A stretch of 64,000 bases of DNA from the NCBI RefSeq assembly GCF_025263685.1, contig NZ_CP092109.1, forward strand, positions 2,295,001-2,359,000. The letters are read 5' to 3'. The number at the start of each line of letters is the position of its first letter. Positions within the stretch are counted from its first letter, which is position 1. Shown in pieces: positions 33,527 through 36,021 of this stretch. Below the pieces are notes generated by a model that was not told the DNA's origin, searched no databases, and worked only from the letters and a program-made list of their open reading frames with translations. This stretch comes from Geoalkalibacter halelectricus (lineage in GTDB: Bacteria > Desulfobacterota > Desulfuromonadia > Desulfuromonadales > Geoalkalibacteraceae). A program made the translations under genes and the position numbers.

Positions 33527-34054
33527 ATGAAAAAGCCCCATGCACCCTTGGTTTTTGTATTGGCATTTGTTGTGGTGGCAAGCTGGTCGGTCCAGGCACA
33601 GGGATGGTCCAGGGAGGGTTTTGACGACCGCGGTTCAGGTTCGGGTTGGGATGGCGGGAGCTTCAGCGGGAGTTGGGCGGCGATTTTCAATGGTGCTCCC
33701 ACCGAGGAAGCCTGCCGTGAATGCCATGAAGATTTACGAAGTTTCCCGCGTTTGGAGTTTCTCAATCCCGATAAGCATCATCTTTTTCTCGGCCAGCAAA
33801 TTCCCCAATCCACAGTCGCGCCCAATGGGCAGGTCGGTGGGGTTTACGATTGCTTCTCTTGTCACGTGGTCGAGCAGTTCGGTGATGTTTTCCAGGTGAT
33901 AACCGTGCGTAATTGTCTTCAATGCCACACTCGTCAAACTGTGACGGGCAGTCCACGAAGCAGCAATGTTCACCACTTAAGAGATATCCTCCGGCATTAT
34001 TCCTGTGGTGATTGTCACGATTTCGGTGACAGACGGGGCGGATGGGGCAGATAG
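33527..34054 (+). CDS. Periplasmic tetraheme c-type cytochrome
   Basis: A secreted protein of 175 residues with a signal peptide (KKPHAPLVFVLAFVVVASWS, cut after VQAQ) and four CxxCH haem-binding sites: CRECH (about 63), CFSCH (about 109), CLQCH (about 130) and CGDCH (about 160). Further His (KHHLF, NVHHL, RHYS) can serve as distal ligands. After the signal the sequence is Gly/Ser/Trp-rich with no haem for 35 residues. It is not a close match to PpcA-type or NapC-type cytochromes, so its partner is unknown. GGGAGG precedes the ATG. Electron transfer in the periplasm or to the outside is the likely role. Confidence 0.88.
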   Translation: MKKPHAPLVFVLAFVVVASWSVQAQGWSREGFDDRGSGSGWDGGSFSGSWAAIFNGAPTEEACRECHEDLRSFPRLEFLNPDKHHLFLGQQIPQSTVAPNGQVGGVYDCFSCHVVEQFGDVFQVITVRNCLQCHTRQTVTGSPRSSNVHHLRDILRHYSCGDCHDFGDRRGGWGR

Positions 34055-34258
34055 TGTAAATTAATTCGACACATGTCTCAATTCACCCTGAGCGGGTTAT
34101 GTGGCTCCGGGTTGTTCAATTTTCTCTTGTAATTTAAGCATGTTTTGCCATGTTTGTCGAAGTAGGGAATGTGTGGCGATTTGTCGGAATTTTTTACACC
34201 TTCTTGGGTGAGTGTGTAAGGTTTCTCAAAAAAGTTAATAAAAACAAGCCCTTGGTGA

Positions 34259-34275
34259 TTGGTGCGTTTTTTGCT
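34259..34275 (+). promoter_or_regulatory. Sigma-54 promoter of the PEP-CTERM gene
   Basis: TTGGTGCGTTTTTTGCT has the GG and GC doublets (34261 and 34273) exactly ten bases apart and the -12 box TTGCT. The match to TGGCACG-N4-TTGCW differs at two places. It lies 57 bases before the GTG start. PEP-CTERM genes are known to be under sigma-54 with PrsK/PrsR in several species. Confidence 0.65.
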
Positions 34276-34330
34276 ATAAAATTGGCTTAGATATGGTCTA
34301 ATTTTTACGTCCATGAAAATAGGAGGGTTT

Positions 34331-35098
34331 GTGAAAAAAACATTGTTTTTTGTCCTTGGCTTGTTCGCTTTGGTGGCTCTGAATGTTAATTCCGGCAACG
34401 CGGCCCTTATCGCCCAATACACTTTTGACGACTTCTCTCTGTCGGATTCCAGCGGCTCCGCAACCGCCTACAACCTGACGGCGGTTGGCGCGGCGCCGAA
34501 TCTGTCCAAGCAGGCCTATTTTTCCGATGGGTCGGCCGACAACTACCTGCAGGTGGCCGGTCCCGGCGGCATGCCGGATTGGACCCTGTCCCTGTGGGTC
34601 AACACCCGAGTCATCGATCAGGGCACCTTCAAGGCGCTGTTCAGCAACAATATCGACGCCAATGCGGATTTCTCCTGGCAGATCGACAGCCACAACGGCG
34701 AGTACCGTCTGGTGTCGCGCACAACGACGAACAACCCGACAATCATCATCGGCGCTCCGACTTTCGATACCTGGGAAAACATCATCGTGCAGAAATTCGG
34801 CGGCAATAACGCGCGGGTTTTCTTCAACGGAGATCTGGTAGGGTTGACCGGCTTCAATCCCGGTGGTCTGCAGAATTTCCGCATCGGTATCAATCGCAAT
34901 TCCAATCAGTCCTTCCTGGGCTACCTCGACAACATTCAGATCTGGGACGACAGCCAGGTTGATCCCTGGGCGATTTTCCAGGCGGGGCCCGGAGCGCACC
35001 GGGTTGACCCCATCCCCGAACCCTCCACGCTGCTTCTTCTGGGCGGCGGACTGCTCGGGGTAGCGTTCTGGCGGCGTCGCCAGGGAAGAACATCCTGA
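34331..35098 (+). CDS. PEP-CTERM-sorted LamG-like surface protein
   Basis: An exported protein of 255 residues: signal peptide (KKTLFFVLGLFALVALNVNS, cut near GNAA), a concanavalin/LamG-like beta-sandwich (about 25-220; TLSLWVNTRV, WENIIVQKFGGNNARVFFNG, LDNIQIWD), and a PEP-CTERM tail (PIPEPSTLLLLGGGLLGVAF with following RRRQGR). That tail is recognised by an exosortase (EpsH/XrtA) and removed during export of exopolysaccharide-linked proteins. GTG at 34331 is preferred because AGGAGG lies just before it and KK then opens the signal; an ATG six codons earlier overlaps that site. No exosortase gene is in the window. Confidence 0.88.
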   Translation: MKKTLFFVLGLFALVALNVNSGNAALIAQYTFDDFSLSDSSGSATAYNLTAVGAAPNLSKQAYFSDGSADNYLQVAGPGGMPDWTLSLWVNTRVIDQGTFKALFSNNIDANADFSWQIDSHNGEYRLVSRTTTNNPTIIIGAPTFDTWENIIVQKFGGNNARVFFNGDLVGLTGFNPGGLQNFRIGINRNSNQSFLGYLDNIQIWDDSQVDPWAIFQAGPGAHRVDPIPEPSTLLLLGGGLLGVAFWRRRQGRTS

Positions 35099-35130
35099 TT
35101 CAACCGGTTTCAATATACCAATGCCATATC

Positions 35131-35166
35131 AAAAAGGTCGCCTCCGCGGAGCGCGACCTTTTTTTT
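35131..35166 (+). terminator. Terminator of the PEP-CTERM gene
   Basis: AAAAAGGTCGC pairs with GCGACC followed by eight T residues, with a CTCCGCGGAG palindrome in the loop. A classic terminator, also usable for the convergent nitrilase gene. Confidence 0.9.
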
Positions 35167-35208
35167 ACCACGGCCGACACCGAATCACGGCAGGGCTGCG
35201 GGGAATTT

Positions 35209-36021
35209 TTAATAAAGGCGCCGATGGGTCAGGGCGGGCAGTTGTTTGCGCACCTGATGGACGCGTTGCAGGTCGATGTCGGCAAGGACGACCTCTCCTT
35301 CGGTTGCTCGCTGATTGGTGGCCTGCGCCACCACCAGGCCCCAGGGATCGACAATCATGCTGTGCCCGAAGGTTTCGCGTCCCCCGGGATGGCGACCGAT
35401 TTGGGCCGCGGCCAGGACATAGGCCTGGTTTTCCACGGCGCGGGCCCGCAGCAGCAATTCCCAGTGTGCCTGGCCGGTGGGTACGGTGAAGGCCGAGGGA
35501 ATGCAAAGCAATTGCGCACCCAGGGCGGCATAGTGACGGTAGAGTTCGGGAAAACGCAGGTCGTAACAGATGCTCAGGCCCACAAGCCAGTCCTCCAGAT
35601 CCAGCACCACCGGTTGGCTGCCCGGTTGAATGCGGGCCGATTCGTGATAACTGCGATCGGGCAGGTCGCCATCGAAGAGGTGGATTTTGTCGTACAGGGC
35701 CACTTGTTCGCCGTCGGCGGAGAAAACCACACAGGTGTTGCGCAGCAACTCGCCCTCGCCCGGCAGCAGCAAAGATCCGCCGATGAGGGTCAGAGCGTGA
35801 CGCCGGGCCTGGTCGGCCAGAAACGGCAGAACCACCTGGCGCGCGAGCACCTCGGCAAAATGTCTCTTGCGGTCATCGTCGGGGTGGAAAAAGGCAAACA
35901 TTTCTGGAAGCAGGGCCAGCTTCGCCCCCTTGGCCGCGGCCTCGTCAAGCAACGCCGAGACAACGGCCAGGTTGGCTTCGACCCGATCCCCGGAACTAAG
36001 CTGCAGGCAGGCGACGCGCAT
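35209..36021 (-). CDS. Carbon-nitrogen hydrolase (nitrilase superfamily, Nit/omega-amidase-like)
   Basis: A hydrolase of 270 residues for amide C-N bonds. The catalytic triad is plain: Glu in LLPEMFAFF, Lys in LYDKIHLFD and Cys in LSICYDLRFPELYR. IHLFDGDLPDRSYHES and the Cys motif are like Nit1/Nit2, deaminated-glutathione or omega-amidases rather than true nitrilases. Substrate therefore probably a deaminated glutathione or 2-oxoglutaramate-type amide, by family. GGAG seven bases before the ATG decides the start. It is a one-gene unit reading towards the PEP-CTERM gene. Confidence 0.88.
   Translation of the reverse strand: MRVACLQLSSGDRVEANLAVVSALLDEAAAKGAKLALLPEMFAFFHPDDDRKRHFAEVLARQVVLPFLADQARRHALTLIGGSLLLPGEGELLRNTCVVFSADGEQVALYDKIHLFDGDLPDRSYHESARIQPGSQPVVLDLEDWLVGLSICYDLRFPELYRHYAALGAQLLCIPSAFTVPTGQAHWELLLRARAVENQAYVLAAAQIGRHPGGRETFGHSMIVDPWGLVVAQATNQRATEGEVVLADIDLQRVHQVRKQLPALTHRRLY

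Follow-up and report, generated by a model that had tools for sequence, protein, structure and literature searches.

A LamG-like PEP-CTERM gene of Geoalkalibacter halelectricus as a predicted member of the PrsK/PrsR sigma-54 regulon, and the helical register of PrsR boxes and promoters

A stretch of 64,000 nucleotides from the genome of Geoalkalibacter halelectricus, hereafter the window, contains a gene for a LamG-like protein which very probably belongs, as a single-gene unit, to the sigma-54 regulon in which PrsK/PrsR control PEP-CTERM proteins. Its control by PrsR is inferred from a PrsR box in front of the promoter and from studies published on other species. This type of regulon has been known since 2006 and the gene is an ordinary member of it, while two aspects may be regarded as modest new points, i.e., the helical register between boxes and promoters and additional likely targets of PrsR.

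The gene and its control region

The gene (34331..35098, + strand) starts with GTG and encodes 255 amino acids, beginning with a putative hydrophobic N-terminal leader (KKTLFFVLGLFALVALNVNSGNA after the GTG, read from the sequence), followed by a LamG/concanavalin-A-like domain and by a PEP-CTERM tail in which the C-terminal PEP motif, the hydrophobic stretch and the basic end are all present. The initial annotation had described a LamG-like protein with a PEP-CTERM tail, which is borne out by matches to PF13385 (Laminin_G_3, 39.9 bits, cut-off 27.6), PF07589 (PEP-CTERM, 32.4 bits, cut-off 20.7) and TIGR02595 (27.8 bits, cut-off 16). The nearest named relative found belongs to a Geoalkalibacter MAG (68% identity), and the orthologue in G003, a genome of the same genus, is 88.5% identical. 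An alternative in-frame ATG at 34313 is kept in G003; the GTG at 34331 is favoured because the Shine-Dalgarno sequence AGGAGG (34321..34326, + strand), likewise conserved in G003, fits this start codon. Upstream, an intergenic region up to 34330 separates the gene from the stop of a multihaem cytochrome gene (34054). Its own stop codon is followed by a stem-loop and T-run (35131..35166, + strand; fold -19.9 kcal/mol, z -5.5), a likely terminator that is absent from the output of a simple scan. Due to this stem-loop and the upstream intergenic region, it probably forms a single-gene unit, as is described for most PEP-CTERM genes (PMC1569441).

The -24/-12 element TTGGTGCGTTTTTTGCT (34259..34275, + strand), aligned with 40 others, features the GG at 34261-34262 and, after ten bases, the GC at 34273-34274. 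The GTG lies 55 nt past this 17-mer and 57 from the C of the GC, so that the well-spaced element which had been placed 57 bases before the start codon was found exactly there; the transcript start is predicted near 34286. The PrsR box (motif 1) TGTCGGAATTTTTTACA (34182..34198, + strand), 17 nt long and ending in TTTACA as does the published motif 1, is located 60 nt before the 17-mer. It had been overlooked in the initial annotation, and its presence ties the promoter to PrsR and not to another activator of the NtrC type. Motif 1 was described as 17 nt ending in TTTACA and motif 2 as carrying the GG/GC, with a spacer of 62.8 (SD 10.6) between both and an average of 71 nt from motif 2 to the start codon (PMC1569441), and the values in the window (spacer of 60; 55 to the start codon) fit this published spacing. 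Between box and promoter, an A-tract and an IHF-like core (34228..34254, + strand) with one mismatch to WATCAANNNNTTR (counted by eye) were recognized by conservation at a fixed offset. This element is only partly conserved in the orthologous G003 region, in which box and -24/-12 element are each changed in one base and the spacing and the GTG are kept. A second exact PrsR box, in inverted orientation (34055..34071, - strand) and identical in G003, immediately follows the stop codon of the cytochrome gene upstream; these two are the only exact PrsR boxes of the 64-kb window. The small multihaem cytochrome gene whose stop codon abuts the inverted box occupies positions 33527-34054 (Cytochrom_c3_2, 32.6 bits).

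Partner genes and conservation among relatives

An exosortase as well as prsK and prsR had been predicted to occur elsewhere in the genome, and all of them were found on the 4.13-Mb single contig. PF09721 identified one exosortase (257.8 bits; 226.5 with the XrtA model TIGR03109, cut-off 208), which is followed by EpsI and then by PrsK and PrsR. In genome-wide profile searches, PrsK reached 533.7 bits (cut-off 300) and PrsR 655.3 bits (cut-off 502.6), the latter being the sole protein above the cut-off with the next one at 435. Past PrsK/PrsR, a divergent GAF-HisKA-HD gene is followed by XrtA-associated polysaccharide genes comprising export, chain-length, kinase, outer-membrane, ATPase, deacetylase, FemAB and glycosyltransferase functions; models of PrsT gave 0 matches in the 20 ORFs of the stretches L021/L022 at E 1e-10. 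RpoN is present (TIGR02395, 453.8 bits, cut-off 277.35), and so are IHF beta (127.6 bits, cut-off 115) and IHF alpha, which exceeds the cut-off of NF001401 (131.5 vs. 111 bits) and stays below that of TIGR00987 (114.4 vs. 120.25 bits). PF07589 revealed 6 PEP-CTERM genes in the genome, of which 5, including the window gene, feature a box together with a -24/-12 element; the sixth (L006), which has the weakest PEP-CTERM match, lacks a box. The proposal that PrsK/PrsR and sigma-54 govern this gene is consequently supported by the partner genes, the PrsR box and the matching promoters, with the control itself being inferred.

The survey was extended to 24 genomes, this one included. PEP-CTERM proteins occurred in 15 of them and exosortase in 16, i.e., in the same 15 and, with weak partial matches, in G014. 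PrsR was found in 14 genomes, namely 13 of the 15 with PEP-CTERM and G018, which features PrsR and no PEP-CTERM. G011 has PEP-CTERM and exosortase and no PrsR match, and both of its PEP-CTERM genes are devoid of a box; G002 (92% complete) likewise gave no PrsR match, yet its PEP-CTERM gene has a box. In total, 116 regions upstream of PEP-CTERM genes were divided into a discovery set of 33 and a test set of 83 (84 loci, one dropped). A composite, defined as a box with at most 1 mismatch and a -24/-12 element with at most 3 mismatches, was present in 24/33 discovery and 53/83 test regions, compared with 3 of 4150 copies obtained by shuffling the bases of the test regions. A forward box with at most 1 mismatch was missing in 6/33 discovery and 19/83 test genes. 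The box-less discovery genes comprise L006 of this genome, L025, L035 and L043 of other PrsR-bearing genomes, and L038 and L049 of G011; for some box-less genes, wrong start codons may have been picked by the script.

Two other explanations of the promoter have to be weighed against PrsR control. The -24/-12 element might be a chance pattern of AT-rich intergenic DNA, with an ordinary promoter being used instead. Lone GG-N10-GC patterns do occur several times per kilobase, each of the 6 PEP-CTERM frames in this genome having 2 to 5 of them within roughly 500 nt upstream (with less upstream sequence available for the sixth), and positions 33900-35300 hold three sigma-70-like sites where 0.9 are expected. 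Only one of these three lies on the + strand, however, with its end (34055) some 275 nt upstream of the GTG, whereas the combination of box and promoter is nearly confined to real regions (53 of 83, vs. 3 of 4150 shuffles) and its elements are kept in the G003 orthologue. The shuffles and the footprint in G003 led us to reject a chance promoter, which is highly improbable. Somewhat less remote, and still improbable, is a genuine sigma-54 promoter that is served by another NtrC-type activator, with PrsR merely sharing a similar box: 32 further proteins of the genome match the PrsR model at 164 bits or more, all below the cut-off, and in Desulfovibrio DVU0110 and DVUA0057 were predicted to share one motif (PMC4641369). 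Against this stand the single protein passing the PrsR cut-off (655 bits, next 435), the co-occurrence of PrsR and PEP-CTERM in 13/15 genomes, and the two PEP-CTERM genes without boxes in the PrsR-less G011.

Under the favoured PrsK/PrsR control, PrsK would sense a signal and phosphorylate PrsR, which would then bind the box at 34182-34198, perhaps aided by the inverted box at 34055-34071. Bending of the DNA at the A-tract/IHF-like element could bring PrsR onto the RNA polymerase-sigma-54 complex at the -24/-12 element, where ATP hydrolysis would open the promoter. The LamG protein would presumably be exported and its PEP-CTERM tail cut by the exosortase, so that it could be released or anchored in an exopolysaccharide layer produced from the locus beside prsKR. 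Against this mechanism count the box-less genes listed above, the discordant genomes G002 and G018, and a result from Aquincola, where a plasmid with prsK or prsK-prsR failed to restore a mutant in that gene cluster (PMC9850573).

Helical register and the element between box and promoter

Box and promoter stand in helical register, with their spacings grouped by whole turns. The distance from the end of the box to the GG was left free from 20 to 200, which yielded 77 box/promoter pairs, 71 of which do not exceed 90 (22 from the discovery set, 49 from the test set); the remaining 6 pairs, at 106-181, lie outside the register test. All 71 spacings fall into four groups of 49-53, 59-64, 71-74 and 82-87 (near 51, 61, 73 and 85), and none of the 71 occurs at 54-58, 65-70 or 75-81. 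These band edges were fixed after both sets had been seen; under a smoothed null about 27-29 spacings would be expected in the gaps, and never fewer than 11 were obtained in 20,000 draws with each of three bandwidths. When period and phase were derived solely from the discovery set, the test set conformed to them (p = 3e-11). The register of the test set was retained when the dominant group at 59-64 was left out (n = 14, p = 3e-4) as well as after the removal of similar elements (p = 2e-11). An exact 10.5-bp period was rejected, since the best period ranged from 10.4 to 10.85 in the discovery set and from 11.4 to 12.05 in the test set; because of this difference between sets and cuts, a grouping by whole turns is claimed and not an exact period. 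Such a register is to be expected if the spacer is short and bent and PrsR has to be turned towards the polymerase. No prior report of the helical register or of the third element was found in the open-licence literature searched, and the words 'IHF' and 'phasing' are absent from the main text of PMC1569441.

The promoters of the group near 61, aligned on the GG, feature an A-rich part near -31, an AATTTCA-like block from -21 to -15 and TTA from -9 to -7. When a weight matrix built from 44 promoters of this class was applied at the same offset to the 27 belonging to the other classes, the scores far exceeded those of shuffles (z about 10); among shifts from -12 to +3, zero shift performed best in these 27. 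The conserved element is consequently assigned a fixed place before the -24 position and, judged from its sequence, resembles the IHF consensus with an A-tract. It is a serious possibility, at a little less than an even chance, that this part of the spacer reflects intrinsic curvature or a polymerase contact of any sigma-54 promoter and not an IHF site. The conserved AT positions near -31, -20 and -9 from the GG, which are about one helical turn apart, would agree with this, as would the control set of sigma-54-like promoters without a box, which is small and not clearly different (5 AT-rich of 10, p = 0.08). An IHF site is favoured by the occurrence of WATCAANNNNTTR with at most one mismatch at the single fixed offset of -19 in 10/44 promoters of class 61 and 3/27 of the other classes, and by the fact that both IHF subunits are encoded in the genome. 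Deletions of ihf in G. sulfurreducens, where prsK/prsR correspond to GSU1941/GSU1940 (PMC1569441), raised the PEP-CTERM gene GSU1943 about threefold and lowered GSU1945 two- to threefold (PMC7962754). IHF thus affects genes near prsK/prsR in that organism, although not simply as a helper, and the rise of GSU1943, which speaks for curvature or polymerase contact, is a misfit with the simple helper role that IHF would have in the mechanism favoured here. In view of the partial consensus matches, the small box-less control and this rise in the ihf mutants, IHF is not claimed as a proven part of PrsR-dependent promoters.

Further candidate targets and known systems

Besides PEP-CTERM genes, two transcription units are likely further targets of PrsR, as suggested by their upstream elements. 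The GAF-HisKA-HD gene (L022:3512-5987, C1:3938512-3940987; 750 residues), which adjoins prsR and is divergent from the XrtA polysaccharide genes, is preceded by an exact box and a strong -24/-12 element at a spacing of 120. Among 12 stretches taken from relatives downstream of prsR, 3 contain an orthologue (G001, G003 and G004), and all three carry a box and a -24/-12 element (2 or 3 mismatches) at spacings of 123, 139 and 61. Accordingly, a box precedes this gene in 4/4 genomes where it was found, this one included, with the spacings of 120, 123 and 139 falling beyond the four spacing groups. The second unit was encountered with R1, a sequence-only model of the box/promoter composite that had the window element in its training set. 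R1 ranks this training sequence first (E 1e-11), recovers the untrained element of L003 (E 1.7e-6) and points to a new place at C1:2691159-2691243 (E 1.7e-4). As for the other PEP-CTERM elements, L002 obtained E 0.058 and L005 was not listed, and the box before the HD gene obtained E 1.07; matches with E above 0.01 were looked at in part and are not claimed as targets. The new place precedes a gene whose 110-residue product is similar to precursors of NHLP-type RiPPs (26 bits, cut-offs 34 to 51). The genes behind it encode a B12-binding radical SAM protein, a large protein weakly matching the subtilisin type and, after a frame that matches nothing, a methionine adenosyltransferase (535.6 bits, cut-off 557). 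The names in this operon are kept broad because no protein reaches its curated cut-off. The stretch in front of it (L172:493-745, C1:2690992-2691244) contains two exact PrsR boxes and one with a mismatch, together with a -24/-12 element.

The central features of the system agree with those described by Haft et al. (2006; PMC1569441), including a PEP-CTERM substrate, motif 1 ending in TTTACA, the -24/-12 motif 2 and the spacing of both, a single-gene unit with a long upstream region, and a tandem PrsK/PrsR near exosortase and polysaccharide genes. Compared with the text of that work, in which a few sites before other genes are mentioned, the additions are the register, an A-tract/IHF-like element at a fixed place and two targets apart from PEP-CTERM genes. 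Likewise, the PEP-CTERM gene pepA of Aquincola tertiaricarbonis has a -24/-12 promoter, upstream of which an enhancer sequence was predicted; its start site at the -24/-12 element and its dependence on RpoN1, which it needs for high transcription, were measured, whereas both are predicted for the window gene (PMC9850573). In Desulfovibrio vulgaris, the PrsR protein DVUA0057 has PEP-CTERM targets as well, and its five predicted ones were enriched in DAP-chip (PMC3333781); that regulon differs in belonging to another bacterial group and in its other target proteins (PMC3333781, PMC4641369).

Taken together, it may tentatively be proposed, at a chance well short of even, that PrsR promoters are rigid and helix-phased, with boxes sliding by whole turns relative to a fixed element bent by IHF, and that the regulon extends beyond sorting substrates to the GAF-HisKA-HD protein, a possible c-di-GMP phosphodiesterase, and to the operon of the NHLP-like peptide and the B12-dependent radical SAM enzyme. 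If this holds true, PrsR would jointly activate proteins of the cell surface, a second messenger and a modified peptide. The comparative set offers testable rules, i.e., whole-turn spacing and an architectural element at a fixed place, which are of use in predicting PrsR targets and in clarifying the contact between PrsR and polymerase, and the additional targets provide a starting point for finding which other functions may be activated along with the exosortase system.

A LamG PEP-CTERM protein of Alteromonas antoniana (L008:6001-6711) is 51% identical to that of the window and its gene has a one-mismatch box at a spacing of 51, which would possibly reflect transfer between distant groups. 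A one-mismatch box at this spacing occurs in 2/5 Alteromonas loci; with 4 and 5 mismatches, however, their -24/-12 matches are weak, so that the orthologue was not adopted as a strong second clade and is only supportive. In the own genome, further exact boxes away from PEP-CTERM genes are located at L165:1522 (- strand, near C1:1.44 Mb), with a -24/-12 element at a spacing of 100, and at L169:1532 (- strand) and 1661 (+ strand), near C1:0.57 Mb. Composites in 136 kb of own-genome sequence, which is little for inference, numbered 2 compared with 1 in three shuffles. Moreover, exact PrsR boxes on either strand were observed within 200 nt past the PEP-CTERM stop codon in 10/57 loci (L002, L003, L026, L027, L034, L039, L045, L054, L066 and L074). 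In eight of these ten, no -24/-12 element with up to 3 mismatches follows within 250 nt, and in L003 and L054 the box lies 1-2 nt from the stop codon.
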